Assembly (NCBI GenBank): GCA_015064555.1
Contig: SVRZ01000003.1
Coordinates: 1 to 64,000 of the forward strand
Reading direction: 5' to 3'
Length of the DNA stretch: 64,000 nucleotides
Source: Oscillospiraceae bacterium
Lineage (GTDB): Bacteria > Bacillota > Clostridia > Oscillospirales > CAG-272
Below the pieces are notes generated by a model. It was given only the letters and a program-made list of their open reading frames with translations, made no database searches and had not been told where the DNA came from. Shown in pieces: positions 26,303 to 61,564 of this stretch; positions within the stretch are counted from its first letter, which is position 1; each line of letters opens with the position of its first letter. Made by a program: the position numbers and the translations under genes.

Positions 26303-26363
26303 TATTAAACAATATTAAACAACTTTCACCGCAATTGACTTTTATTTCGACATTTGTTATAAT
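26303..26363 (+). promoter_or_regulatory. Promoter of the membrane-ABC fusion locus with tandem 10-mer
   Basis: TTGACT-17 bp-TATAAT at 26335-26363, 43 nt before the start codon. Immediately upstream, TATTAAACAA occurs twice head to tail (26303-26322). Its placement just above the -35 box suggests an activator or regulator site. Confidence 0.65.
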
Positions 26364-26405: not shown

Positions 26406-28676
26406 ATGAACCATTCTGGAAGTGTTTTATTGATTTTTGGCTTGATAGCGATTTTTGCAGGTCTTGCCTTCGGCTTCAAATACAAAAAAATCAATTCCTC
26501 TATTGTAAGAAAGATCCTCGGTGTTATTCTTGCGGCAGTTACGTTAGTAAGATATATGTATGAAACAGAGGCTAACCGAGGAACCATTGCTACTGACGGA
26601 AATTATCATTTCCTTCAGGGATTAAATATGTTTTCACCGTTTGGAGACGATGTATTAAGTACCGTAATTTCATTGCTTTTGACTTGGTTTAGCTTCACAG
26701 CTATCCTTGCCATTGTACTTGATCAGTTCTTTGAGTATAAGACTTTAAGACATCTGACAAACTTCTTTGCGCTACCCGTTCTGATTCTGGATATTATCTT
26801 CTTTGGCAGATATGCAACAGGTATTATCGGTACGGACGTCTTTACCGACTTTGAATTAAGACTCCCGCTTCTTTGCTTGGAAATCGGCATTGGCATAGGC
26901 CTTGTGGCGTCAAGATTTATAGAGGAGGGAAAATTCCCAATTCCCACCAAGAGTGAGACGAAGAGCCTGCTGTTTGCTCTTCCTTTCGCGATCCTGACAA
27001 TAATTCCCACCTATATCCCCTTGGCATTTTTTGGTGAAATCCCCGGACTGACGGTGATCGATGATTTTAACTACTTGCATAGAATCGTTCTTTACTTCTC
27101 GATAATTGTCCCCTTTGTTATATTCCACGCTCTGAAGGATAAGCCTCAGGACGTAAAGCGCTTTGTAATGATCTTTATGTCCCTAGGTCTTATGTGGACC
27201 TATATGAGAGAATATACCTTTGCAGACGTGCCTACTCCCTGGAACTGGCCGCTCCATCTTTGTAATACAGCGCAGTTTATAATTCCCATCTGCCTTGTGT
27301 TCAAGGTGGACAAGCTTTTCAATTTCACGTTGTTCATCAATGTGCTGGGCGCATTCCTGGCGATGATTATGCCAAACTTCACAAACACTCCGCTGTCTAA
27401 TGAGGCTGTGCATTTCTGGATAAACCATTATCCTGCATTCTTTATGCCGCTTCTTCTCGTGGCGCTCAAGATATTTGAAAGACCGAAGTTTAAGAGTTGG
27501 CTTTACTCACAGATCGCCTTTTACATCTACTTCTTCGGTATGATTTTCGCTAACAGCTATTTTACGGCGATCGGTCATCACACAGACTTCTTCTTCCTTA
27601 ACAGTGATTTCATCGTTGATAAGCTTGGTAAATGGGCAGAAAAAACACGTGATCTGGTTTTACCCATTACAGTCGGAGACGTCACGTTAGAATTCTATCC
27701 TGTATACCAGTCTCTGTTCTTCCTCGTATACATAGTAGCATCCTTGGGAATGTGGTTCTTGTACGCCATACTATTCAAGTCGTGGGATAGCGCAGAGGAC
27801 AGAAGATTAAAAGAAAGAGATTATAAGAGAATGAAAAAAGAGCTTACAGAATTCCTCGGCGGAAGAAATATTAATGAACCTATTACAGGAGATAACTCTC
27901 CCAGCCTCGTGCTTAAGCACTTTAAGAAAAAGTACGGAAAAAATACGCATTACTCTGTAAATGATGTATCTTTTGAGGTCAAGGGCGGAGAGGTGTTCGG
28001 ATTCCTCGGTCCCAACGGTGCGGGTAAGTCCACTATCATCAAGAGCGTTGTGGGAATCCAGACCATCACAGAGGGTAATATTGAGGTATGCGGATACGAC
28101 GTTGACAGACAGTCAATACAGGCTAAACACAATCTCGGATTTGTTCCCGACCATTACGCTCTCTACGAGAATCTTACGGGCAGAGAGTATATCAATTATA
28201 TAGCCGACCTTTACTCCGTAAGTCAGGAGGAGCGTGATGAGCGCATAGAGGGTTACGTTGATGCATTCCAGCTTACAGGCTCATTTGATAATCAGATGAA
28301 AACCTATTCTCACGGTATGAAGCAGAAGATTGCTATTATGGCAGCTCTCGTGCACGATCCGAAGGTCTGGATTCTCGACGAGCCGCTCACCGGTCTTGAT
28401 CCCAATTCCATCTTTGAGGTCAAGGAGTGTATGAAGGCTCACGCAGCCAAAGGAAATATCGTCTTCTTCTCCTCACACATTATAGACGTTGTGGAAAAGA
28501 TTTGCGACAGAATAGCGATCATTAAAAAGGGCAAGCTTCGCGCCTGCGTCACTCTTAAGGAGCTTGAGGAGAGAGGCATTGACCTTGAGAGCTTCTATCT
28601 CAGTATTATTGAAAACGAGGATCCCGATTATGTGGATATCAGTCTTAAAGGCGAGGTAGAAGAAGTAAATGAATAA
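26406..28676 (+). CDS. Fusion of YwaF/TMEM164-like membrane domain with an ABC transporter ATPase
   Basis: 756 residues in two parts. Residues 1-460 are polytopic, with roughly a dozen hydrophobic helices. The part around 281-360 (WPLHLCNTAQFIIPI ... INHYPAFFMPLLLVALKIF) carries the LPLHLC-type signature and following His of the YwaF (TIGR02206)/TMEM164 family. Mammalian TMEM164 is reported to be a Cys/His acyltransferase; here Cys286 and a His are present, but activity is inference. Residues 500-730 are a full ABC ATPase: Walker A GPNGAGKST (535-543), signature YSHGMKQK (634-641), Walker B VWILDEP (654-660), H-loop His691. The next gene, overlapping by 8 bp, is an ABC permease. I know of no standard annotation for this fusion. 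Confidence 0.85.
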   Translation: MNHSGSVLLIFGLIAIFAGLAFGFKYKKINSSIVRKILGVILAAVTLVRYMYETEANRGTIATDGNYHFLQGLNMFSPFGDDVLSTVISLLLTWFSFTAILAIVLDQFFEYKTLRHLTNFFALPVLILDIIFFGRYATGIIGTDVFTDFELRLPLLCLEIGIGIGLVASRFIEEGKFPIPTKSETKSLLFALPFAILTIIPTYIPLAFFGEIPGLTVIDDFNYLHRIVLYFSIIVPFVIFHALKDKPQDVKRFVMIFMSLGLMWTYMREYTFADVPTPWNWPLHLCNTAQFIIPICLVFKVDKLFNFTLFINVLGAFLAMIMPNFTNTPLSNEAVHFWINHYPAFFMPLLLVALKIFERPKFKSWLYSQIAFYIYFFGMIFANSYFTAIGHHTDFFFLNSDFIVDKLGKWAEKTRDLVLPITVGDVTLEFYPVYQSLFFLVYIVASLGMWFLYAILFKSWDSAEDRRLKERDYKRMKKELTEFLGGRNINEPITGDNSPSLVLKHFKKKYGKNTHYSVNDVSFEVKGGEVFGFLGPNGAGKSTIIKSVVGIQTITEGNIEVCGYDVDRQSIQAKHNLGFVPDHYALYENLTGREYINYIADLYSVSQEERDERIEGYVDAFQLTGSFDNQMKTYSHGMKQKIAIMAALVHDPKVWILDEPLTGLDPNSIFEVKECMKAHAAKGNIVFFSSHIIDVVEKICDRIAIIKKGKLRACVTLKELEERGIDLESFYLSIIENEDPDYVDISLKGEVEEVNE

Positions 28677-30339
28677 CCTGATGACACTTGTAAAGATGCA
28701 GCTTAAAGAAAAGCTCGCCTCCAAGCGTACGGAAAAACACGGCAGTAAGCTATTTAACCTTCTGTTTTCCGTCTTTATGGCTGTTCTTAAGTTTGCGATG
28801 GTTACTGTACTTTGCGGTGCATTTATTACGATAGCGAAAATGTTCAGTCTGTTCAACTATCCAGGATATGTACCTCAATCGGCAATATCTATTGCATTAT
28901 TGGTTATGTTGGGCTTTTCGCTTTTATCATGTACTGTCGGTCTCACAAAATCTCTTTATTACTCAAAGGACAATGCAGTTCTATTAACATTACCTTGTAC
29001 CCCTAACCAGATCTTTTTATCTAAAATCATTATTTTCTTTATATTTGAATTAATTCGTAACTTTTCATTTATAGTTCCGGTATTGGTAGCCTACTTCATT
29101 ACGCACGGCTATGCAATACATTACTATCTTTGGATGATACTGTGCTTTGTTTTTGTATCAATGCTTACGGTTGTAATTGCGGCACTGCTCTCAATTCCGG
29201 GAATGTGGATCGCCAACATATTCAACCAGCATGCACTTTTACAGAAAATCGTGCTGGTTATCCTGGTTGGATCGGCAATTTTCGGTGTGTTATATGCGAT
29301 AAACCTCATTCCCGAGAACATTGATCTTCAGCAGCAGGCACCGTTTATCAAGAAACAGATCAGAAACTTCGTTGACGGTTATGCTTATTCAAATACAGAA
29401 ACCAAAGCGCTGAATCCCGTATTCAGTATGACGATCCTTCTTTTAGGAAGTGCGGACTTTATATCCTTCTCCTTAGGATCAAATCTTTTGCGACTGCTGA
29501 TTCTCGTTGGCGGCATAGCGGTATTTGCAGCTCTGACTATGCTTATTGCTCGTCCGCTCTTCTACTCTATGGCATCAAAGCCGTTTGAGTTTCTCAAGAA
29601 GACCGTTAAGCCACGCAAAAACAGGGTGCACAACAAGAAAATTGCGGCATTTGTCAACGAAATTAACGTGGCAATAAAGTCGTCCGACCGAATTTATTCC
29701 AACGTAGCTATTCTGTTTGCTACACCCATTCTTATATTCCTTTTAAACAAAATCTTTGCAGCGATGAGCATCCGCGAAATCGGTCAGTTTATGGTATCTA
29801 CCGCAAACGTTCTTATCATAATGCTTATCGTTCTTAACTCCAACACATACGCTGCCAGCATCTTCTCAAAGGAGGGACGCTCCAGCTACCTTATCAAGAC
29901 ACAGCCCACCAATCCCTTCGGACTTTTGGTAGCTAAGCTTGTGCCAAACACACTCTTTGTTACGCTGTCTCTTGTTTTCGTATACGTCGTTATGTATAGC
30001 ACCTGCGGCCTTACCGGAGTAGATCTATTCTATCTGCTGGCGGGTATATGGTTCATTTACCTGACTCACCTTATTCTTTGTGCGGAGTTTGATATTATGA
30101 ATCCTCAGAATGAAGCGTATGCCACCATGGGCTCGTCAGACTCTAATCCTAACGAGGCAAAAGCAACCGCTGTAGCCTTTATTCTCTCGTTTGCAACGGC
30201 AGCGATGGTATTTCTCATACTTCAGATGCACGAGCCGTATAACCTCTATCTCAAGCTGATGCTCGTGGGAATTGCTGCTTTTGTAATCAAGGCTTTTGTG
30301 TTCTATCAGAACGTCAAGCTCTACTATAAGGAGAAATAA
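28669..30339 (+). CDS. ABC exporter permease (ABC-2 like)
   Basis: 556 residues with 12 or so hydrophobic segments, beginning with a short cytoplasmic amphipathic stretch (MNNLMTLVKMQLKEKLASKR), as in ABC-2 and PF16962-like exporters. It starts inside the ATPase fusion gene (8-bp overlap), so the two are made together and presumably form the transporter. No catalytic motifs are visible, and no feature identifies a substrate. The genes that follow are exported proteins with Ig-like domains. Confidence 0.85.
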   Translation: MNNLMTLVKMQLKEKLASKRTEKHGSKLFNLLFSVFMAVLKFAMVTVLCGAFITIAKMFSLFNYPGYVPQSAISIALLVMLGFSLLSCTVGLTKSLYYSKDNAVLLTLPCTPNQIFLSKIIIFFIFELIRNFSFIVPVLVAYFITHGYAIHYYLWMILCFVFVSMLTVVIAALLSIPGMWIANIFNQHALLQKIVLVILVGSAIFGVLYAINLIPENIDLQQQAPFIKKQIRNFVDGYAYSNTETKALNPVFSMTILLLGSADFISFSLGSNLLRLLILVGGIAVFAALTMLIARPLFYSMASKPFEFLKKTVKPRKNRVHNKKIAAFVNEINVAIKSSDRIYSNVAILFATPILIFLLNKIFAAMSIREIGQFMVSTANVLIIMLIVLNSNTYAASIFSKEGRSSYLIKTQPTNPFGLLVAKLVPNTLFVTLSLVFVYVVMYSTCGLTGVDLFYLLAGIWFIYLTHLILCAEFDIMNPQNEAYATMGSSDSNPNEAKATAVAFILSFATAAMVFLILQMHEPYNLYLKLMLVGIAAFVIKAFVFYQNVKLYYKEK

Positions 30340-30341
30340 AG

Positions 30342-30770
30342 ATGAAAAAATCAGTAATAATAGTTATTGCTCTTATATATGTAGCGGCAATTGCCTTAGT
30401 ATCCTTTATAGGACTTAATCCCAAGATATACAATCAAAACGTATACGTTGAAGGAATTACGATCAGTTCCGACCGCATCATTGAGAAATATCAGGGTGAG
30501 GATGCGATCTATTTCATCAACGAGTTTAATGCGGACGGCACGAGAACTGTGAAGCTTGACTGTGAGGTAACCCCGGACAATGCTACCAATAAAAAGATAA
30601 ACTACGTTTTGGAAAAGAATAATACCTTTGCAACGGTAGACGAAAACGGATGCATCACTATCACAGGTCCCGGTACCCGCGTCTTTCCGATATTTATAGC
30701 TTCGGCAGAAAACCCGACAATTTCCCGAAAAATAATGATTTGGGCAATTGACACGTCGGACTTTGAGTAA
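30342..30770 (+). CDS. Small membrane-anchored protein with one Ig-like domain
   Basis: 142 residues starting 2 nt after the permease stop, with AAGGAGAAATAAAG before ATG. An N-terminal hydrophobic helix (about 5-25, uncleaved anchor or signal) is followed by about 110 extracytoplasmic residues. Their pattern (VEGITISSDRIIEKYQGE ... CEVTPDNATNKKINYVLEKNNTFATVDENGCITITGPGT) is that of a bacterial Ig-like group 2 (Big_2) domain. It may be an accessory subunit of the transporter. No enzyme motif is seen. Confidence 0.7.
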   Translation: MKKSVIIVIALIYVAAIALVSFIGLNPKIYNQNVYVEGITISSDRIIEKYQGEDAIYFINEFNADGTRTVKLDCEVTPDNATNKKINYVLEKNNTFATVDENGCITITGPGTRVFPIFIASAENPTISRKIMIWAIDTSDFE

Positions 30771-30857: not shown

Positions 30858-33800
30858 ATGAAAAAAAGATTGTTAGTCCCTATTATTCTGATTCTTGCTC
30901 TTGTTTTGTCGCTGACAGCTTGCCTTGGTAAACAAATTCAGAGCATAGAGATCAAGAGTGGCGCTCCCACCGAGGTTCTCGTTGGCGAAACTCCTGATTT
31001 TTCAGAAATCAAAATTCTCGTTAGCTATAACGACTTATCGACCAAAGAAGTCGGCTTCGACGACATTGTTATTTCATCTGTGGACACATCCAAGCCCGGT
31101 AAGGTGGGGTATACAATTACCTATGAGGGTATGACCGTCTCCGCTTCTCTTGAGGTTAAGGCTCCCAACACGCCTCCCCCATCTGCGCCCACTCTTCAGT
31201 CACTCACCTACCGTAACGGACTTAAAATGTCCATATATAAGGGTGACGTCTTTGATACCTCCGCTCTTACAATGACGGCTACCTACTCGGATAATTCAAC
31301 CAAGATCGTTTCGGCTAAAGATCTTCAGCTTTCCGAAATTGATCCCAGTGCAGTAGGCGAGCAGGTCCTTAAGGTTACTTACGGATCATTGACTGCAGAC
31401 ATCACGATTACGGTTGTTGACGTAGTTCCCGTAGGCATTGAGATCGATGCCGATTCGGTTGATACAACGGTTGCCGAAGGTCAGAATCCCGATATCTCTA
31501 ACCTTAAAGTTTATCTTGTTTACAACAGCGGATTCAAGCACAAGATCGATAATAACGATCCCAAGCTTGATGCTGATAATTTCCCCACTTATCCCGATGT
31601 GGACTGGGTAATTACTTACGATAGCTTCAGCGTAACCGTTAAGCTTTCCAACACTCCTCCGGTAGTTACCTCTATTAAGGTTAATAGCGGTTATCCGACA
31701 TGGGTATTGCTTAACGATACTTACAGCACAGTGGGTATTACAGCATCTGCTACTCTCTCCAACAACATGTCGAAAACCGTTACAGATCTTACCTTCTCCG
31801 AAATTGACACGACCACTGCAGGCAAAAAGACCGTTACCGCTACCTACACAACAGATGAAGGCTCATTTACGAACAGCTTCGAGATAGAGGTTCTTACTGT
31901 TGTATCGGTTGCTATTGATACCGGATCCTTTAATGCAACAGCTTCCGTAGGTCAGTTCGATATAAGCGGACTTCGCGTAGACATAGCCCTCTCCAACGGT
32001 GAGTTCATTGAGCGTTCCGAGGGTGTTACGGTTAACTACTCCGAGGGCTTTGACAAGGACGAGATCGGCGAGGGTACAATCACGGCTACCTTCCATGGAG
32101 TTACCTCTGCACCTGTCAGAATCGTTATCGTTGACGAAGACTTCAAGTATCTTGTTGCGGGCGTTTCTGATCCCGATCAGCTTGCTAACTGGAAGAATCA
32201 CTCCTACCAGAACAACTTCCTTGATAGCGGTTACGGATATGCAGTTGGTTATAACAACCCCTTCAAGTACACTCTTACACTGAGTTTGCTTGATCCTACT
32301 ACTTATAGACCGGTTGAAAAATACGTAGGCTACACAAGTGTATCCGAGGTTCTTCTTGACGGTGCTTCCGTTGGTGCGGAATACGTTACCATTGATGAAG
32401 TAAATCACACCTTCCAGTTCACAGCAGCTGCTAAAGGCAAGACCTTCACCATTAAGACACGCCCCGATAACATTCCCGACAGCAAGATCGAGGAATACAC
32501 CAAGTCTCTTGAGGTAACCGTTGTCGACGGTTACAACGTTTACGACGCAAAGGAGCTTAATGTTATTACAAACGTATCTGTTAACCTTGGTAATTCGGGT
32601 TATAATCAGCTTACAGTTGTAAATACCTTCCTTGCAAACCACGGTATTACCCGTCCCGAAACTCTTAACGGTATCGTACTTCATAACAATTTCAAAATTA
32701 CAAAAGCATACCTTCCCGCTGAATACTTCTTCAACGGCGAAGACGGTAATACTTACATCTGGGATCACCAGTCTATCTATTACCACGAGATGAAGTCTGC
32801 CGGAACCTTCAACTTCTACGGCAACTACTTCACTATTGATACACGCAGCATTCCTATCGTTGCTCCCGAAGGAACAAAGACAACCAACGGCAAAGTCTCT
32901 AATGATGATGACAACTACTCCTCCTCCGAGGTGTTCAGATTCCACGTTGCCGACGAGCTGTGGCTGTCAGATCCCAACTTCAATCATACCAATTTTGTAT
33001 ACAACATCTATGCACTTGGCATGAATGACAATGATGAGTCGGTTACTCAGGAAGAATTAGTTGAATCTAAGCGTCATATGCTTGGTGTATATGCATTCAA
33101 GATCGCTAAGGCTACCTATAATCTTAATGCTGTTAACGCAACTCGCTATTACATTACCGTAATGCAGGAATATGACTGCGTTACTATGAATCTTAATTAC
33201 ACCAAATTCTACGATGCTTGGCAGTCTCACATCAATACTTGGACTTCTAACCTTATTGATAACAAGGACGCTACAACTCTTCATGCAAACCACGCGCCCA
33301 CTACGATTAACATTAATAACTCATTCGTAGGCAAGGCAGGCGGTCCTGCTATCTTCTGTATGAGTGAGAATCCGTCCTTCGCAGCTAACAGCCAGTCCAA
33401 GTCGGTTGTTAACATAGACGACAAATCCGAGGTATTCTCATACGTAGTAGGTAATGAAGCTTGGTTTACCTCTCACGGTATCAGCGACCAGGTAACTACT
33501 ATCTCTTCACTGAACGGCTTCTTCCAGTTGAATGGAGCTTCCTTTACTGCACAGCTTGGTGAAAGCACCAATAATTATATGAACATGATTATGATCGTTA
33601 TGGAATCCGATTACATTCCCGGTCTGAGCACAGGCACTCCCTCTGACGTTGACGGTAGCCTTACTATCAACGGCACATCCGCTTTGAATATGGATGACGG
33701 CATGCGCGAGATTTACAGTCCTGAAGCAGGCGGTATGGTTAAAATACCTTCAGAATACGGAAACGGATATGTAGACGTTATCAAAGGCCAGGCTGCTGCT

Positions 33801-34031
33801 ACCGGTGCACCTATTCCTCCCCCTATCTTCGTTTCCAGCGAAGGCGGTGTAGGCTATTCTGACCTTCAGAACTTTATGAACGTTACGGGTGATAATAGCA
33901 TTTACAAGGGTGATTACGTTGCGCTTTATTGGTATAATCTCGGTGTTGCGCTCGCCTTCAATGAGGGCAAGCTTCCCGCAGAGCCCACTCCTCCCACAGC
34001 GCCCTGGAGCACCGAGGCTCGCACATATTAA
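30858..34031 (+). CDS. Large surface lipoprotein with Ig-like repeats and probable beta-helix
   Basis: 1057 residues. Signal peptide with lipobox LSLTAC (Cys about 22). Residues 25-440 hold about five Ig-like repeats of the Big_3 kind, each beginning like IQSIEIKSGAPTEVLVGETPD and including FSEIDTTTAGKKTVTATY-type strands. A linking domain follows. From about 560 to 1000, Asn/Gly-rich short strands (FNFYGNYFTIDT, TININNSFVGKAGGPAIF, SLTINGTSALNMDDGM) suggest a right-handed parallel beta-helix. The end is Pro-rich without a sorting signal. Codon choice is like tuf and pckA, pointing to high expression. It lies 88 bp after the small Ig protein with no terminator between, so it is probably the main cargo or partner of the transporter. 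Function unknown. Confidence 0.75.
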   Translation: MKKRLLVPIILILALVLSLTACLGKQIQSIEIKSGAPTEVLVGETPDFSEIKILVSYNDLSTKEVGFDDIVISSVDTSKPGKVGYTITYEGMTVSASLEVKAPNTPPPSAPTLQSLTYRNGLKMSIYKGDVFDTSALTMTATYSDNSTKIVSAKDLQLSEIDPSAVGEQVLKVTYGSLTADITITVVDVVPVGIEIDADSVDTTVAEGQNPDISNLKVYLVYNSGFKHKIDNNDPKLDADNFPTYPDVDWVITYDSFSVTVKLSNTPPVVTSIKVNSGYPTWVLLNDTYSTVGITASATLSNNMSKTVTDLTFSEIDTTTAGKKTVTATYTTDEGSFTNSFEIEVLTVVSVAIDTGSFNATASVGQFDISGLRVDIALSNGEFIERSEGVTVNYSEGFDKDEIGEGTITATFHGVTSAPVRIVIVDEDFKYLVAGVSDPDQLANWKNHSYQNNFLDSGYGYAVGYNNPFKYTLTLSLLDPTTYRPVEKYVGYTSVSEVLLDGASVGAEYVTIDEVNHTFQFTAAAKGKTFTIKTRPDNIPDSKIEEYTKSLEVTVVDGYNVYDAKELNVITNVSVNLGNSGYNQLTVVNTFLANHGITRPETLNGIVLHNNFKITKAYLPAEYFFNGEDGNTYIWDHQSIYYHEMKSAGTFNFYGNYFTIDTRSIPIVAPEGTKTTNGKVSNDDDNYSSSEVFRFHVADELWLSDPNFNHTNFVYNIYALGMNDNDESVTQEELVESKRHMLGVYAFKIAKATYNLNAVNATRYYITVMQEYDCVTMNLNYTKFYDAWQSHINTWTSNLIDNKDATTLHANHAPTTININNSFVGKAGGPAIFCMSENPSFAANSQSKSVVNIDDKSEVFSYVVGNEAWFTSHGISDQVTTISSLNGFFQLNGASFTAQLGESTNNYMNMIMIVMESDYIPGLSTGTPSDVDGSLTINGTSALNMDDGMREIYSPEAGGMVKIPSEYGNGYVDVIKGQAAATGAPIPPPIFVSSEGGVGYSDLQNFMNVTGDNSIYKGDYVALYWYNLGVALAFNEGKLPAEPTPPTAPWSTEARTY

Positions 34032-34107
34032 TCCGATAAATTCAGTTTGTGAAGCTGTAAATTTAACAAAGCTTTATAAGCAATAAGCAAAAATATCACT
34101 GTGTCAA

Positions 34108-34146
34108 AAAAAGCGGGGCACTCCTTTTCGGAGTGCTCTGCTTTTT
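34108..34146 (+). terminator. Terminator of the fusion/lipoprotein locus
   Basis: AAAAAGC and GCTTTTT arms outside GCACTCC-TTTTC-GGAGTGC, ending in a T run, 77 nt after the lipoprotein stop. Confidence 0.85.
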
Positions 34147-34195
34147 AGTATACACAATATTTACAATTGCCACAAAATAATATTGATAAAAAATA

Positions 34196-34224
34196 TTGAC
34201 TTACGCTTGCTGTTATGATATAAT
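34196..34224 (+). promoter_or_regulatory. pckA promoter
   Basis: TTGACT-17 bp-TATAAT followed by an A/T-rich 66-nt leader without a stable hairpin. Confidence 0.72.
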
Positions 34225-53015: not shown

Positions 53016-53080
53016 AAAAATAAGCAAATAATCGCGGCAATCTTTGTTAGAAGCATGCTGTCGATCTTTTGCTTATTTTT
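53016..53080 (+). terminator. Terminator of the MerR-ABC operon
   Basis: AAAAATAAGCAAA and TTTGCTTATTTTT, 13 bp, around a 39-nt loop with an inner ATCG/CGAT pairing, and a T run at the end. Confidence 0.75.
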
Positions 53081-53200
53081 TGTTTTACCGTGCCGTCACG
53101 CAAATTATTTGAAGACTCAAATCTGTTTGGTGCAGAAAAACAGCATCTTATCTGTCATAGAGGGAAGTTGCGCGCATCGCGTAGATTTAGTAAAATAATA

Positions 53201-53229
53201 TTGACTTTAGCGCGAACGTGTGATAGAAT
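53201..53229 (+). promoter_or_regulatory. Promoter of the giant LRR protein gene
   Basis: TTGACT-17 bp-TAGAAT, 52 nt before the chosen ATG. The position excludes the upstream part of the track ORF. Confidence 0.65.
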
Positions 53230-53281
53230 ATATAATATTATGTCTAAATATTTATTAAGTTATATTTTACGGAGCGCAAAA

Positions 53282-56200
53282 ATGAAAGAAAAGCTAAAGG
53301 CGAACAAGAAAAAGATAATAATCATATCATCTATAGCCCTTGCGGCGGCGGTGCTGCTGACCGTTCTGCTGATACTTATCCTTGGCGGCAGAGGCGGCTC
53401 GGGCGATAACGGGGGCGGCGGTGCTCTCGCTGAGAGTATAACCTTCTATTACAGCTGTGAGGGATCGGAGGCTGAGCTCCTTTTATCCTCGGACGGAAGC
53501 TTCATCCTGACTTATAACGGTAAGTCGGATGAGGGAAGCTACTCGCTTTCGGATTCTGCTCTTACTCTCGATTTTTCAGCGGATGGCAAGGAGAGCATCG
53601 AGGCGGTATACGACCGGGAAACGGTCACTCTGACCTACGGCTCTGTGTCTATGCGTATGCTTAAGAAGGTCTTTTACACCGTGAAATTCGATTCGGGCGA
53701 GGGCACTGCTGTTCCTGACGTATCGGTGCTTAACGGAAAGGGCGTGGCAAAGCCTGCCGATCCGGAGCGAACAGGCTACATATTTCTCGGTTGGTATAAG
53801 GATAGTGGATTTGAAGATCCCTTCACCTTCGCATCCGACGTTGTTTTTGCCGATCTGACGCTTTATGCGCGTTGGATCAGCGAGAGCGAGGACAAGCGCG
53901 AATATACCATATCATTCGATCTCGCCTATGATACTGCGGAAAGGCTTGCGGCTATGCCTACCGTCGGTGCGCGCCTTTTCGGTGCACCGATTCCCACAAG
54001 AGCAGGCTTTGATTTTGCAGGCTGGTGGGTGAGCACCGTCAACGATCCCGAAAAACCGTCCTACGTATGTACAGAGGATACCGTCTTCTCCGCAGATACG
54101 ACGCTTTTTGCGCTCTGGTATCCGCAAGGAGCGACACGGCTTTTGCCTCCGTCGCTCAAATTATCCGCGGACGGTATCGCTTGGTCCTCCGTAAAGGGAG
54201 CGCGCTCGTATGACGTCACCGTGACCGATTCCGAGGGGAAAACGGTATTCTCTCATTCGACAGGATCTTTTTCGCTTGACCTTGACTTTTCGGATTATCC
54301 CGCAGGGATATATGACATAAAAGTAGTTGCCAATGCCAATACCGGCTCTCTGGATAATTCGGCGGCATATTACACCTTTGCAAATAAGGCTCTGGAAAAG
54401 ATTCGTGACATATTAGTTTCCGGTGACTCGATGCTGGTATTCGAGGGCGTTGAGGGTGCCGAGAAATATCTCATAACGGTAAAGTGCGGCAATCCCGATC
54501 ACAGGCACACCGATTTTGATAACGGTCTTTCAAAGACCTTCAGCTTCGCAAATTGCCCGATGACGGCAGATGGTATCATATTTACCGTAAAGGCGGTCGC
54601 GGAGGGATATCTTTCCTCTGTATCCGATGAATTCATCCACAAAAAGCAGCTCTCCGCAGTAGGCGGACTCACGTATGATGCCGAGGGCGGCAGGGTTATC
54701 TGGAGCGCGGTGGAATCTGCCGAGTATTATACGATATCCGTGACGTGTGCGGCTCATGATCATACCTCTGTTAACGTCGGCTCCTCGCACTCCTTCAGCA
54801 TAAAGGAATGTGCGGGCGATATTACAGTCAGCGTATGTCCTGCGGCAGACGGATATGCAAGCCCGGAGGCGACTGTGCTGACCGTCAGCAAGACCTCGCT
54901 TGCAACACCCGGCGGATTAGCCCTCAGGGGCACGGTTATCACCTGGAGCGCCGTTTCCGGTACTTCCGGATATGAGGTATCGGTAAACGGCACGGTTTAT
55001 ACCTCGGACGCCTGCAGCTTCGATCTTTCGACAGTTTCCGCATCCAGCGATAAATACACCGTATCGGTGCGTGCCAAGGGTGCACAGAGCTCTCTTTGGT
55101 CCGAGCCTATGACGGTCAGCGTCGGCGGTATCGGAGGGGTACGCTATGAACGGAACACTCTTTATTGGAATCACGTGCTCGGAGCCGACTATTATGAGAT
55201 AGAAATAAACGGCGGCGGGCTTTTAAAGATAGAAAACGGAATAGCGAATGCAAGGATATCCCTCTCCAAAGAAGGAGAAAACCTTATAAAAGTGCGTTCT
55301 GTAAGCGGTACTGATGCTTCCGCATGGGCATCAGTATCGGTAAATGCCTCCTCGGTATCATTTGATACGCTTGGCGGTGGCTCGCTCGCTGTTCTTTACT
55401 ACGCAGAGGGCGACGAGATATTCCTCCCCTCGGCACAGAGGACGGGATACGACTTTGTAGCATGGTATAACGTTCCGGGCGGTCCTTATGCTATCGGTAA
55501 GGAGATAAAGGGCGGCATATCGGACGGCAAGACGAATATAGTTCTCTATGCTCATTATAACCCCAAAAAATATGAGATAACCTACAATTACGGAACGGGC
55601 GGCAGCGCCGCAGAGTCCGTCTGCGAGGTGACCTTCGGCAAGGATTACCTGCTTACGGTACCCGTGGCCGATAATTCCGCTACCTCCTTCGGCGGCTGGT
55701 TCTCCGATCCTTACGGTAAAGGCATTCAGTATACGGATGCAACGGGCAGATCGCTATCGCCCTGGTCTGTACCGGAAAGCAAGGAGCTTTACGCCTTCTG
55801 GATAGACGAAACGCTTGAGTTTACCCTCGTTAAGGTGAACGGCAAAGAGGTATATTCCGTTTCGGGCGGTATGAGAATATCCCTGGTGAGCGCGGTCACT
55901 GTCCCCGCATACGTCGGTGATATACCCGTTGCGATGATAGACGGAAATGCATTCAAGGATTGCAAGAATCTTTTGGAGATAAACATTCCGGCTACGGTAC
56001 AGCTCATATCCAGCCTCGATCCCTTTGAAGGCTGTTACGGACTCCGGGATATCAACGTATACGCAGTTGACGGAGTCGGCTCTTCACGCTATGAGTCGGC
56101 TGATGGCACGCTGATAGAAAGAAAGCAGGATGGAACAGCTGCTATTGTTGCCGTTCCTCGCGGCAGAACAGGAGTATACCGTATTCCGGACGGAATATCA

Positions 56201-59200
56201 GAAATACCGTCGGGCGCGTTCAAAAATTCGCTTTTCGAAGAACTCATCATCCCCACGGACGTATCTGTGATAGGTAACGATGCTTTTGCATCATGTGAGA
56301 ATCTTACTCGCATAGAGTTTGTTGACTCTGCCGTAATAGATTCTGTACCCGAGCTCGTCATAGGCAAAAGAGCCTTCGGCGCATGCACGTCGCTTGAGAG
56401 AATCGAGCTTCCCGCGCGTCTTGCAAAGATCGAGCTTTCAAAATACTACGTGGATGCTTCGGGCACCCTTTCGCTTTCGGGAGATGATGCCTTTACGGGA
56501 TGCACCTCGCTCTCTGACGTTACAGTATCGGGCAGGTCGGCATACTACGGTATCAGAGACGGTATGATATATTCGGCAGACGGCAGACATCTTCTCTACT
56601 GTCCTACCTCCCGCTCAGGAGAGCTCGTCGTTCCCGTCGGCACTCAGTCTGTGGGCGCGGGCGCATTCATCGGATGCGGATTAACCACTCTGAGCCTGCC
56701 AAATACCGTTACTTACGTCGGGGAGTACGCATTTTATTCTCTGCCGCTTCGCTCTGTCACCTTCGGAGGCAGAGGACTGAACGACGTTACGGTAGGAGAT
56801 AATTCCTTCCGCGGATGCTCCGAGCTTAAATCGGTAGTGTTTGAGCAGGGCAGCCGTATCTCGGTTATCGGTGAGTATGCATTTGCCGACTGCGTTGCTA
56901 TGACCGAGCTTTCCGTACCCGCGACCGTAAGCGTTATAAGAACACGGGCATTTATGAACTGCATCGCTCTTTCGGGCGTCAGCTTCGCGGCAAACGGCAG
57001 AGCGCTTGAATTCGGCACCGACGTCTTTTATAATTGCACCTCTCTTACCACCGTAACCATTCCTGCCAACGTTTCAAGTATACCCGGAATATTCAGCGGA
57101 TGTACCTCTCTTACCGAGGTCAAGGTTGATGAAAACAGTACATATTTCAGCAGTATTGACGGCGTTATATTCAGCAAGGATATGACCGAGGTGATCTATT
57201 TTCCGGAGGGCAAGGGCGGAAGCTACAGCATCCCCGAGGGTGTGACCGTTATTGCAAACGGAGTGTTCAGGGGCAATAAGACTCTTACCGAGCTTCGCAT
57301 TCCGAACACCGTGTCGCGTATAGGTGATGAGGCATTCGGAGGAACCAAGATAGGTAAAATAAGCTTCTACGGTGACAGTCACGCAGACGGTCTTGTCATA
57401 GGAAAATCGGCATTCAGGGATGCATATTTCGAAAATTACGATTTCACACTTCCTTCTCACACAAAGGAGATAGGCGAATATGCCTTTTCCGGTGTGTATT
57501 ACAAAAATATAATCCTCAACGAGGGCGTTGAGCTTCTCGGTGATTACGCATTCTATTTCCCGAACGGTGCAGGCGGCGGCACGGTCAATATCCCTGCAAG
57601 CGTGCGCTCCATCGGTAAATACTGCTTCTCGGGCGATAGCTATCTTGTGGGATCTGCCGAGTACGGATGCTACGTCGGTGTGACCTTCACAAAGGAGAAT
57701 TCCCGTCTTACGGATATAGGCGACTTTGCCTTCTATAAAAATTCGCATCTTACCGCACTCGATCTTCCCGAATCTGTAAGAGTTATCGGAAATTACGCAT
57801 TCTATGAGTGCCGCGGTCTTGCTGCAATTGAGCTTTCCGATTCGCTGGAGCTCATCGGAGCGTATGCATTTGCGGCATCCTCCTATTCAACCAAGCTGCC
57901 TGTTTCGGTGCTTGTTATTCCAAAAGGCGTACGCGAAATAGGCGCGCACGCATTCGAGCATTGCCATGATCTTACGTCGGTTACCTTTGAGGGAACCGTC
58001 GATTCTCCCGATCTCTATCTCGGTACAACCTATCTGAGAAGCTACACACGTGACGGTATGGAAATGCACGCGATAGAGCGCGGAAACGTTTTTGCATCCT
58101 GCAATAAGCTCTCTGCGGTAATCCTCTCTCCCAATGTGACCGTGCTTGGTGACGGCTGCTTTATGAGCGCGGGAGATTCGGGCTTTACAGTGACCGTTCC
58201 CGAGGATAGCAGGCTGATGAGCATCGGTGCTTATTGCTTCTATAAATCAAGGCTGGCGTCGTTTATTATACCTGCAACCGTACGCAATCTCGCTCCCAAA
58301 GAGGAGTACGGTGTGACCTTTGACCGTATGGGTATAGGCGAGTATGCCTTTGCCGCATCCTCAGATCTTTCCGAAATAACCTTCCGCAAGGATGCGAATG
58401 CATATCCTCTTACTATCGGCTTCGGTGCCTTTTCGGGAGGAACTGCGCTCACGGAATTCGAGCTTCCCGCAAGGCTTTCGTCCTATACATCGGCAAGCGG
58501 AGAGGTCATACCCCCTCTTGCAGACGGTCCTTTGGTATTTTCGGGTGCGGACGGGCTTTCAGATCTCAAGGTAGAGAAGGGAAGTGCGCCTTACACCGTC
58601 TACGGCGGTATACTTTATACCGCGGATATGAAAGAGCTTGTCTTCTGTCCCGCATCCGTTACCGGTGAGGTATCGATACCCGGAACGGTAGAGCTCATAC
58701 ACAGCTATGCATTCTATGAATGCGGGGAGATAACCTCGCTTAAATTTGTCGGCGGCACAGCACCCCTGACGGTTGGCGGGTATGCCTTCGCGGGGATGAA
58801 GGCGATAACCGAGGCGTCGCTTCCATCTGCGACCGTAGCTCTGGGTGAGGGCGCGTTTATGGGATGCACCTCGCTTGAAGCGATAACTCTTTCGAAAAAT
58901 CTTCGCGACTTTGATATTTCGGCGCTCGACGGATGCACGGCACTTAAAAATATATTTGTCGAATCCGCAAGCGCGAATTACACATCCTTGGGCGGCGTTC
59001 TTTACAATGCCGCAAAAACCCATCTTGTGCTTTATCCCGTCGGACGTACCGACAGTGTCTATGCAGTTCCCGATGGCGTCGGAGCAATCGGAAGGTACGC
59101 ATTCAGCGGTAACACATCGCTTACGGCGGTTTCTCTTCCGCAGGGACTTCGTGAGATAAACGAGGGCGCATTTATGGGATGCACAGCACTTGCTGCTATC

Positions 59201-61564
59201 TCGGTTCCGACTACCGTATCTATCATAGGTGATATGGCATTTGCGGATGCGACACTAACAGAGCTTATATTCGAATTCGGCGGTACAGACAGGCTCATCA
59301 TAGGCAATAGTGCCTTTATGAATATAGGTGCCGAGTCGGTTATTCTGCCTGCCAGACTTTCTGTCATAGGAAGCGATGCATTCTCAGGCTCTGCGCTCTC
59401 CTCACTCGCCTTTGAGATCTCCGAGAGCTATCAGCTTACCGAGATAGGTGATAATGCCTTCTTCAAAACTGCTCTTTCGTCGGTAAGACTTCCGGACGGG
59501 GTAGTCAGGATAGGAAATAGCGCATTTGGAGAGATAAGCACTCTTAATGAGGTCATTCTCGGAGAGGGACTTACCGAGATAGGCGAGAAGGCATTCTCAA
59601 AATCCTCCCTGAAGTCAATAAATCTACCCGCAAGTCTTAAGATCATCGGAGCGCGTGCGTTCTATGCCTGCAAGTCGCTTACAGCGGTAGTCTTTGCCGA
59701 TAATTCGATGCTTGAGGTGATCTCGGCAGGCGCATTTGCTGACTGCACCTCGCTTTCCGCAATAAGGCTTCCTTCATATCTTACCGAGATAGGCGGTGGT
59801 ACTGATAACGGAGCCTTTATGGGCTGTACCTCGCTTGAAACGGTAGTCTTTGACAGCTCTCTTAACTGTAAGCTCATAGGTGACTATGCATTCTATAACT
59901 GCTGTGCACTTTCCACCCTCTCTCTCCCCGCATCGGTGGGTGAGCTTGGAGATTATGCATTTTCGATGTGCACCTCGCTCGTAAAGATAACCATTCCGCT
60001 TACGACCACTAAGCTCGGAAAGAGTCTTTTCGAGGGCTGCACCTCGCTTTGCGAGGCAGAGCTTGAGAGCGGTGCGGCTGTTATGCCCGAGAAGATGTTC
60101 AACGGATGCTCAAGCCTTACGTACATATGCATTCCGAGAAGTGTCAACGAGATAGGTAAGAGCTGCTTTGCAGGTACCGCTATTGAGTCCTTTGACGTAG
60201 CGGAGGGCAATATGAGCTTCGTTGCCATATCGGGAATCATATACAATATTTCCAGAACCGAAATACTTCATTTCCCTCCGAACAGTACGACCACCACTCT
60301 CTTCATTCCGAAGGAGATAGTTTCTATCCCTGCGGGTAACTTTGAGGGCTGCACGAATATCAGGGAGGTCATATTCGAGGAGGGAGGAACCACTCCCCTT
60401 ATGATAGGCGAGAAGGCATTCCTTGGCTGCTATCAGCTGAGAAAGGTCGTCCTTCCGGACAGACTTGTATCTATAGGCAAATATGCCTTCAAGGAGTGCT
60501 ATGCGCTCACCTCGATCAATATACCTAAGAGCGTTACCGAGATAGGCGATTACGCATTCACATGGTGCTATAAGCTTTACGAGGTATATAACGAGTCTGC
60601 TATCGCCAATATAGGCTCGAAGGGCTCTATAAAGACGGCTCAGCCAAACGTTAATATATACACGCCTACCTCCGGAGCATCGGTTCTCTTCCGCGAGGGA
60701 GAGTTCCTCTTTGCAACCGTAAAGGGAGTCAAGACACTGATAGGATATGAGGGCGAAAACAGCGATGTAACTCTGCCTCGCGGCGAATACACCGTCGATG
60801 AATATCTGTTCTATAATAATGCATCGGTAACCAGCGTAACCATTCCCGATACCGAGGGTATCACGATAGCATCGAGCCAGTCGTTCTCCGGATGTGTGCG
60901 ACTCGTAAAGATCTTCGTATGCGACTCCTCCGTCCCCGGATCGTGGCATACAAGATGGCATAGCGGAATGAGCGTTGTATACGGATATACGGGTGAGGAG
61001 CTGACCTACACCTTTGTAACCAATGGCGGAGAAGAGATCGCTCCTATAAAATCGAGCGATATCATAAGGCTTCCCGTGCCCGTACGTGCCGATCACATAT
61101 TCATCGGATGGTACGATAACGAATCTCTTTTTGGCGATCCGATATCGGGAAGTGATTATTACAGCTCCGATGCCACCGTCCTTTATGCGGGATGGATACA
61201 TAAACACGACCGCTTCGGCGGCAAGAGCACCGAGGATGCCTTTGCCGCAGCGGACTCTGCCGACCGCACGATATATATCGACGAGGGCGGAGAGAAAATA
61301 TACTTCCGCGTTGAGATAACCGAGGATACGAGCTACAGAATTTCGGCAACAGGTATCGACAACGTTGATCCTATAATTTACGTTATGAATGCAGACGGAG
61401 CCGAGATCGCTAAGTTCGACCGGGGCAAGGCGGAATCTATCACGTATGACTTCTCCGCCGCCGACGGGAATAGCGTATACTATATCGTTATCGGATATTA
61501 CAACGAAAAGTCTGTCGGCATGTCGAATGTGCAGATAATCCTGAATGAGCAGGAAAACGTTTAA
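53282..61564 (+). CDS. Giant BspA-type leucine-rich-repeat surface protein
   Basis: 2760 residues from ATG 53282 (GGAGCGCAAAA in front), not 2831 as in the track. Order: basic N-terminus and one transmembrane anchor (12-34); Gly-rich linker; InlB/Listeria-Bacteroides repeats (YTVKFDSGEG ... GYIFLGWYKDSGF); about five fibronectin III-like domains with heads like GGLALRGTVITWSAVSGTSGYEVSV; two more InlB-type repeats (GYDFVAWYN, FGGWFSDP); several dozen BspA LRR_5 units of about 23 residues (SVTEIGDYAFxxCxxL); another InlB repeat (HIFIGWYDN); and a C-terminal beta domain like bacterial pre-peptidase domains. There is no LPXTG. Six copies of a DGVIYSxD-type spacer split the LRR into superblocks. 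Likely an adhesin or matrix-binding protein. Confidence 0.9.
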   Translation: MKEKLKANKKKIIIISSIALAAAVLLTVLLILILGGRGGSGDNGGGGALAESITFYYSCEGSEAELLLSSDGSFILTYNGKSDEGSYSLSDSALTLDFSADGKESIEAVYDRETVTLTYGSVSMRMLKKVFYTVKFDSGEGTAVPDVSVLNGKGVAKPADPERTGYIFLGWYKDSGFEDPFTFASDVVFADLTLYARWISESEDKREYTISFDLAYDTAERLAAMPTVGARLFGAPIPTRAGFDFAGWWVSTVNDPEKPSYVCTEDTVFSADTTLFALWYPQGATRLLPPSLKLSADGIAWSSVKGARSYDVTVTDSEGKTVFSHSTGSFSLDLDFSDYPAGIYDIKVVANANTGSLDNSAAYYTFANKALEKIRDILVSGDSMLVFEGVEGAEKYLITVKCGNPDHRHTDFDNGLSKTFSFANCPMTADGIIFTVKAVAEGYLSSVSDEFIHKKQLSAVGGLTYDAEGGRVIWSAVESAEYYTISVTCAAHDHTSVNVGSSHSFSIKECAGDITVSVCPAADGYASPEATVLTVSKTSLATPGGLALRGTVITWSAVSGTSGYEVSVNGTVYTSDACSFDLSTVSASSDKYTVSVRAKGAQSSLWSEPMTVSVGGIGGVRYERNTLYWNHVLGADYYEIEINGGGLLKIENGIANARISLSKEGENLIKVRSVSGTDASAWASVSVNASSVSFDTLGGGSLAVLYYAEGDEIFLPSAQRTGYDFVAWYNVPGGPYAIGKEIKGGISDGKTNIVLYAHYNPKKYEITYNYGTGGSAAESVCEVTFGKDYLLTVPVADNSATSFGGWFSDPYGKGIQYTDATGRSLSPWSVPESKELYAFWIDETLEFTLVKVNGKEVYSVSGGMRISLVSAVTVPAYVGDIPVAMIDGNAFKDCKNLLEINIPATVQLISSLDPFEGCYGLRDINVYAVDGVGSSRYESADGTLIERKQDGTAAIVAVPRGRTGVYRIPDGISEIPSGAFKNSLFEELIIPTDVSVIGNDAFASCENLTRIEFVDSAVIDSVPELVIGKRAFGACTSLERIELPARLAKIELSKYYVDASGTLSLSGDDAFTGCTSLSDVTVSGRSAYYGIRDGMIYSADGRHLLYCPTSRSGELVVPVGTQSVGAGAFIGCGLTTLSLPNTVTYVGEYAFYSLPLRSVTFGGRGLNDVTVGDNSFRGCSELKSVVFEQGSRISVIGEYAFADCVAMTELSVPATVSVIRTRAFMNCIALSGVSFAANGRALEFGTDVFYNCTSLTTVTIPANVSSIPGIFSGCTSLTEVKVDENSTYFSSIDGVIFSKDMTEVIYFPEGKGGSYSIPEGVTVIANGVFRGNKTLTELRIPNTVSRIGDEAFGGTKIGKISFYGDSHADGLVIGKSAFRDAYFENYDFTLPSHTKEIGEYAFSGVYYKNIILNEGVELLGDYAFYFPNGAGGGTVNIPASVRSIGKYCFSGDSYLVGSAEYGCYVGVTFTKENSRLTDIGDFAFYKNSHLTALDLPESVRVIGNYAFYECRGLAAIELSDSLELIGAYAFAASSYSTKLPVSVLVIPKGVREIGAHAFEHCHDLTSVTFEGTVDSPDLYLGTTYLRSYTRDGMEMHAIERGNVFASCNKLSAVILSPNVTVLGDGCFMSAGDSGFTVTVPEDSRLMSIGAYCFYKSRLASFIIPATVRNLAPKEEYGVTFDRMGIGEYAFAASSDLSEITFRKDANAYPLTIGFGAFSGGTALTEFELPARLSSYTSASGEVIPPLADGPLVFSGADGLSDLKVEKGSAPYTVYGGILYTADMKELVFCPASVTGEVSIPGTVELIHSYAFYECGEITSLKFVGGTAPLTVGGYAFAGMKAITEASLPSATVALGEGAFMGCTSLEAITLSKNLRDFDISALDGCTALKNIFVESASANYTSLGGVLYNAAKTHLVLYPVGRTDSVYAVPDGVGAIGRYAFSGNTSLTAVSLPQGLREINEGAFMGCTALAAISVPTTVSIIGDMAFADATLTELIFEFGGTDRLIIGNSAFMNIGAESVILPARLSVIGSDAFSGSALSSLAFEISESYQLTEIGDNAFFKTALSSVRLPDGVVRIGNSAFGEISTLNEVILGEGLTEIGEKAFSKSSLKSINLPASLKIIGARAFYACKSLTAVVFADNSMLEVISAGAFADCTSLSAIRLPSYLTEIGGGTDNGAFMGCTSLETVVFDSSLNCKLIGDYAFYNCCALSTLSLPASVGELGDYAFSMCTSLVKITIPLTTTKLGKSLFEGCTSLCEAELESGAAVMPEKMFNGCSSLTYICIPRSVNEIGKSCFAGTAIESFDVAEGNMSFVAISGIIYNISRTEILHFPPNSTTTTLFIPKEIVSIPAGNFEGCTNIREVIFEEGGTTPLMIGEKAFLGCYQLRKVVLPDRLVSIGKYAFKECYALTSINIPKSVTEIGDYAFTWCYKLYEVYNESAIANIGSKGSIKTAQPNVNIYTPTSGASVLFREGEFLFATVKGVKTLIGYEGENSDVTLPRGEYTVDEYLFYNNASVTSVTIPDTEGITIASSQSFSGCVRLVKIFVCDSSVPGSWHTRWHSGMSVVYGYTGEELTYTFVTNGGEEIAPIKSSDIIRLPVPVRADHIFIGWYDNESLFGDPISGSDYYSSDATVLYAGWIHKHDRFGGKSTEDAFAAADSADRTIYIDEGGEKIYFRVEITEDTSYRISATGIDNVDPIIYVMNADGAEIAKFDRGKAESITYDFSAADGNSVYYIVIGYYNEKSVGMSNVQIILNEQENV

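Follow-up and report, generated by a model that had tools for sequence, protein, structure and literature searches.

A surface lipoprotein with a predicted beta-helix head and its operon partner, an ABC ATPase fused to a TMEM164-type domain, in herbivore-gut Clostridia

Introduction

What does a lipoprotein of 1057 residues do on the surface of a gut bacterium if large parts of it resemble no known family, and is its function related to the genes in front of it? The question is raised by a locus in the window, which is the whole analysed DNA stretch of 64,000 nucleotides. There, the lipoprotein gene is the last of four, following genes for a TMEM164/ATPase fusion, a permease and a small Big_2-like protein. 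The sequence-only reading of this DNA dealt with the lipoprotein and overlooked the four-gene operon, which we hold to be the more informative part. In the literature searched, subscription papers aside, the four-gene cassette is described nowhere. Our best explanation, to which we give somewhat less than an even chance, is that a dedicated system of four genes for export and lipid tailoring has the lipoprotein as its abundant surface product.

The operon and its distribution

The features of the locus are compiled in Table 1. Genes 1 and 2 overlap by 8 bases, genes 2 and 3 are 2 bases apart and genes 3 and 4 are 87 bases apart; a hairpin in this last gap was not significant (z -1.2). The hairpin scan places the stem of the probable terminator on the - strand. 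Gene 1 matched Pfam ABC_tran with 98 bits. Gene 2 has approximately 12-14 hydrophobic segments and matched ABC_tran_2 with E 1.7e-4 (best family member 1.2e-5). The following pckA gene is preceded at 34196-34224 by TTGACT-17-TATAAT with TG before the -10, i.e. by hexamers identical to those of the operon promoter.

Table 1. Coordinates of the operon, its signals and the parts of the encoded lipoprotein in the window.
Feature	Position	Strand	Basis
Probable operon promoter, TTGACT-17-TATAAT, extended -10 TG	26335..26363	+	11/12 consensus, 42 bases before gene 1; pattern only
Gene 1, 756-aa fusion: N-terminal membrane region with TMEM164 domain, C-terminal ABC ATPase	26406..28676	+	Pfam; 11/11 operons
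TMEM164-type domain; His225 (just ahead of the Pfam match), Cys286, His341	27087..27635	+	Pfam, alignment
ABC ATPase domain, Walker A GPNGAGKST, signature SHGMKQK	27957..28388	+	Pfam ABC_tran, residues 518-661; motifs invariant
Gene 2, 556-aa polytopic ABC permease	28669..30339	+	weak Pfam ABC_tran_2; hydrophobic segments
Gene 3, 142-aa, one N-terminal TM and Big_2-like outer domain	30342..30770	+	Pfam Big_2 E 4e-4; TM 1-29
Gene 4, 1057-aa lipoprotein	30858..34031	+	ORF, RBS, conserved operon position
Lipoprotein signal peptide, lipobox LTAC, Cys22 (residues 1-22)	30858..30923	+	sequence
Ig-like stalk, Big_3 repeats (residues ~23-428)	30924..32141	+	Pfam
Head part 1, beta-sandwich (residues 429-556)	32142..32525	+	AF2 model; Foldseek neighbours Ig/BIG2-type sandwiches
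Head part 2, predicted parallel beta-helix (residues ~557-1037)	32526..33968	+	AF2 models, Foldseek, invariant columns
Probable intrinsic terminator before pckA, GCACTCC-loop-GGAGTGC then TCTGCTTTTT	34104..34150	+	read from sequence; pattern only

The head of the lipoprotein was present in 7 of 295 sampled genomes, all belonging to one family, and the four genes stood in this order in all seven. A search of GTDB contigs with the alignment as query returned ten loci, six of them in already counted genomes and four new, again all in order. Including the window, all 11 genomes have preserved the gene order; they come from one family of herbivore-gut Clostridia, and the genes flanking the operon differ from locus to locus. 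The carriers are metagenome-assembled genomes, whose named sources are sheep colon, roe deer cecum and water deer colon. Outside this bacterial family, neither 394 genomes of the order nor 399 of the phylum yielded a head; viral contigs contained no relative of the lipoprotein, and a phage origin was rejected. All 7 genomes that encode the lipoprotein have close copies of gene 3, whereas the other 288 sampled ones have none. At two loci (L010:5964-6680 and L011:1461-2180) a near-identical membrane-anchored protein of 238-239 aa is encoded directly after the operon; it is not found beside the window operon. Elsewhere in the window, at 53069-61564 with a putative TTG start, a large surface-type protein of 2831 aa is encoded, which carries at least 13 BspA-type leucine-rich repeat stretches and Listeria-Bacteroides repeats.

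The same genome harbors a sister operon of five genes (L047:5767-14359, i.e. G000:C32:67767-76359), in which the TMEM164 protein (481 aa) is separate from the ATPase, followed by the permease, a Big_2 protein of 305 aa and a 1278-aa lipoprotein with a Big_2 stalk. Its permease passes the ABC_tran_2 cut-off. Sister operons were found in G000, G054, G180 and G246, with Big_2 proteins of 305-311 aa.

The intact operon in 11 of 11 genomes, the co-occurrence of gene 3 and the repetition of the plan in the sister operon lead us to consider the four genes as one dedicated system. They also bear on the assumption that an ordinary surface adhesin is only co-transcribed after an unrelated exporter. Inheritance within one bacterial family could produce such co-occurrence, but the order has been kept in 11/11 cases at 30-44% head identity while the outer neighbours change, presence and absence are strictly paired, and the same plan recurs in the sister operon, where the lipoprotein has diverged. 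Hence, we regard a lack of any functional link as very improbable.

The lipoprotein and its Ig-like stalk

The reading of gene 4 as a 1057-residue lipoprotein holds true. The frame is uninterrupted, a strong RBS is found upstream, and the signal peptide with lipobox LTAC and Cys22 is the one expected from a bacterial lipoprotein. Ten relatives with 30-44% head identity encode the same protein at the same operon place, so this is not a chance frame. The lipobox was found in all 15 lipoproteins compared, 11 of the window kind and 4 of the sister kind, and the gene is a single copy in its 2.07 Mb draft genome. An opposite-strand gene in the same frame was rejected, since the reverse complement is full of stops; a 360-aa antisense ORF runs in another frame across the gene at 31863-32945. 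A candidate head relative in G035 was also discarded, because the match (E 4e-4) spans 129 residues of a different protein.

The Ig-like region recognised before was confirmed by the Big_3 profile (PF07523), which the lipoprotein passes with 62.6 bits against a cut-off of 21.2 (E 4e-17). Three stretches pass Pfam in the window stalk, in which approximately five Ig-sized segments can be seen by eye. Among nine lipoproteins the number of Big_3 stretches passing singly was 1, 1, 1, 3 (window), 5, 5, 6, 8 and 9. Hence, relatives carry between 1 and at least 9 Ig domains in the stalk under a constant head, which would be expected from a display device rather than from a subunit docked to a transporter.

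The head of the lipoprotein

The statement that the C-terminal residues from about 440 on match nothing known also stands: for residues ~430-1057 there was no match in Pfam, NCBIfam or PDB sequences. An AF2 model of residues 429-1057, based on 11 sequences, reached pLDDT 80.3 and pTM 0.85. It shows a sandwich at head positions 1-128 and then repeated short strands up to ~605. The region had been regarded as one block with a possible beta-helix. The beta-helix was borne out for the larger part, while residues ~429-556 are modelled as a separate sandwich. The strand-repeat part modelled alone was weaker (pLDDT 68), and this model was used solely for the list of structural neighbours.

In Foldseek, the head found no match at E 1e-3 in PDB or viral models. 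Among the 50 best neighbours of the strand-repeat part nearly all are parallel beta-helix proteins, none individually significant, for example tailspikes, GH87, GH110, carrageenase, pectin esterase, polygalacturonase and SRRP adhesins. GH28, GH49 and lyases were further weak structural neighbours of the head. Weak matches to Lymphocyte antigen 96 were taken as chance and those to Bacillus Sap as general Ig-fold likeness. Judging from the models, the second part of the head likely belongs to the parallel beta-helix fold class, and we take it as a predicted new family. Its alignment with the sister head is colinear over the beta-helix region with E 0.0012 yet a probability of 19%; hence, homology of the window and sister heads is likely rather than shown.

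Invariant positions of the beta-helix among the 11 heads include W788, H791, N798, GGP828-830 and WF869-870. Acidic residues are missing among them, an argument against an active site of the GH28 type. These columns matter for the idea that the head degrades polysaccharides, as a glycosidase or lyase from a new beta-helix family, and is shown on the surface for fibre digestion in the herbivore gut. The related genomes come from sheep and deer colon or cecum, and the weak neighbours GH28, GH49, GH87, carrageenase, pectin esterase and lyases would fit such an enzyme. In contrast, W, H, N, G and P are among the invariant residues, the operon offers no obvious partner of carbohydrate metabolism, and the heads gave no significant match to a known glycosidase or polysaccharide lyase family in Pfam, PDB sequences or Foldseek. 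Altogether, we consider a degrading enzyme unlikely.

Codon adaptation

The reference for the codon adaptation index (CAI) consisted of fusA, tuf and the ribosomal proteins of this genome, and ranks were drawn from 250 genes of at least 150 aa in sampled regions of the genome. The lipoprotein gene has a CAI of 0.582 (rank 22 of 250, median 0.423), 8.4 sd over its own amino-acid-matched expectation. Its adaptation is thus not average but clearly raised, as had been claimed; however, with values of 0.860 for tuf, 0.794 for pckA and 0.739 for fusA, a codon usage like that of tuf and pckA is too strong a statement. The adaptation was raised in 6 of 7 genomes (5-9 sd over expectation); in the further six genomes z was 5.0 to 9.2 in five, with G085 as the exception (z -0.3). 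All three sister-operon lipoproteins tested behaved the same (z 10.3, 6.6 and 3.7). Therefore, the suggested abundance at the cell surface can be upheld as a tendency, without the comparison to tuf and pckA. It should be mentioned that long secreted proteins may generally be under such selection, which could account for part of the adaptation.

Operon genes 1-3 have ordinary CAI values (0.440, 0.379 and 0.406), and z values of transporter genes are near or under zero, unlike those of their partner lipoproteins. This difference indicates that the product is made in excess of the machine. It touches another possible arrangement, in which the beta-helix protein is an extracytoplasmic subunit docked on the ABC transporter and mechanically worked to load or mature something. 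Such an arrangement is known from NosDFY, a complex for copper-centre maturation with an ABC ATPase, a permease and an outer beta-helix protein in one operon. The cassette likewise combines an ABC ATPase, a polytopic permease and a predicted outer beta-helix protein. But, given the codon optimisation of the lipoprotein and not of the transporter, the partners are probably not equimolar, a stalk of such variable length (1 to at least 9 Ig domains) is unlike a fixed docking subunit, none of the 11 heads has a NosD-type Pfam match, and the extra TMEM164 domain has no counterpart. A NosDFY-like complex is therefore improbable.

The TMEM164-type domain

The N-terminal part of gene 1 matched Pfam TMEM164 (PF14808) with 72.3 bits against a curated cut-off of 25 (E 5e-20). 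TMEM164 is described as a cysteine-dependent acyltransferase acting on phospholipids (PMC13276253). We aligned 15 TMEM164 domains from operons with 29 stand-alone ones from the order. The operon domains keep His225 and Cys286 in 15/15 and His341 in 14/15 cases; in the stand-alone proteins the respective numbers are 28/29, 28/29 and 29/29. Most other conserved positions differ between the two groups. The profile match and the conserved Cys and His residues place gene 1 in the TMEM164 family. A related ABC gene within 1.5 kb was found at none of the 29 stand-alone loci of the order, so the pairing of TMEM164 with an ABC transporter is specific. Together with the conserved His/Cys/His positions, this suggests an apparently active acyltransferase joined to a transporter and one lipoprotein. 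The third TMEM164-family gene of the genome (L087, G000:C15:6937-7653) is a stand-alone 288-aa frame.

One operon deviates. In L059 (= G085, also L012) the acyltransferase is without His341 and the lipoprotein without codon optimisation. This operon is possibly a decayed or differently working copy, and we count it against our best explanation.

Proposed function

According to our best explanation, the ABC unit would move a lipid or an acylated carrier, the acyl donor, to the outer leaflet, where the fused TMEM164-type domain would transfer an acyl group from the exported donor to the partner lipoprotein. The likeliest acceptor would be the N-terminal cysteine of the lipoprotein, as for LhaT of Bacillus, which belongs to the same ATGY superfamily as TMEM164 and N-acetylates lipoproteins outside the cell (PMC12345273). 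The small protein of gene 3 may hold the substrate near the membrane. The finished lipoprotein would then stand through the wall on its stalk and display the beta-helix head, which most likely would bind a glycan on the cells of plants, the host or neighbours.

We infer an action of the acyltransferase on the partner lipoprotein; by analogy with TMEM164 acting on phospholipids, it is equally possible that a lipid is the acyl acceptor instead. The general Lgt/Lsp route alone could also suffice for the lipoproteins. The complete version would be a modification and display system of Clostridia dedicated to a single substrate: one partner lipoprotein would receive a special acyl group at its N-terminus from a TMEM164-type transacylase that is part of the ABC exporter. 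This version appears rather doubtful to us.

Similarly doubtful, but nearly as good as our best explanation, is the assumption that the ABC unit and the acyltransferase make and export an acylated surface lipid or polymer, for which the lipoprotein is receptor, anchor or remodeller, its head binding the exported glycan. Sequence does not separate the two. The activity of TMEM164-type enzymes on phospholipids (PMC13276253) is consistent with this assumption, an ABC-2-like permease with an ATPase suits such export, and the beta-helix neighbours are nearly all glycan-active or glycan-binding. However, none of the 11 operons contains a glycosyltransferase or polymer-synthesis gene, and, with between 1 and at least 9 Ig domains in the stalk, the head would end up at very different distances from the membrane.

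Bacterial TMEM164-type acyltransferases are mostly uncharacterised, and the cassette offers a concrete connection from this enzyme type to a specific surface protein. Should the fused enzyme act on the partner lipoprotein, we would have an acylation system for lipoproteins that is dedicated and not general; should an exported lipid be its target, the function of a bacterial TMEM164 protein would be revealed. Furthermore, the cassette would define a new family of beta-helix heads on the surface of herbivore-gut Clostridia.

Comparison with known systems

The head shares its predicted fold class with parallel beta-helix surface proteins such as SRRP adhesins, tailspikes and GH28/GH49/GH87; however, none of these reaches E 1e-3 and the head is without an invariant acidic residue. 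Regarding the transporter, the ATPase domain of gene 1 is closest to the GldA and DrrA models but far under their curated cut-offs (210 vs 403 and 207 vs 312, respectively), and gene 2 is closest to ABC_tran_2. With NosDFY the cassette shares the parts list, the beta-helix here being predicted. It differs in the missing NosD sequence match of the 11 heads, its lipid anchor, Ig stalk and additional acyltransferase domain, and no nitrous oxide reductase or NosL gene was noted beside the operons.

Closer relations exist to membrane acyltransferases. With the TMEM164/YwaF family (PF14808) gene 1 shares the match over the cut-off and the His, Cys, His positions, whereas the other members in the order are mostly stand-alone proteins of ~250-400 aa with no related ABC gene adjacent (29 loci). 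LhaT (YpjA) belongs to the polytopic membrane acyltransferase superfamily common to gene 1, and its substrate class in Bacillus are lipoproteins (PMC12345273). The Pfam scan of gene 1 yielded TMEM164 and ATPase/P-loop models only, thus no DUF1405. LhaT is a stand-alone DUF1405 protein for lipoproteins in general, whereas gene 1 is a Pfam TMEM164 protein fused to an ABC ATPase and apparently paired with one large lipoprotein.
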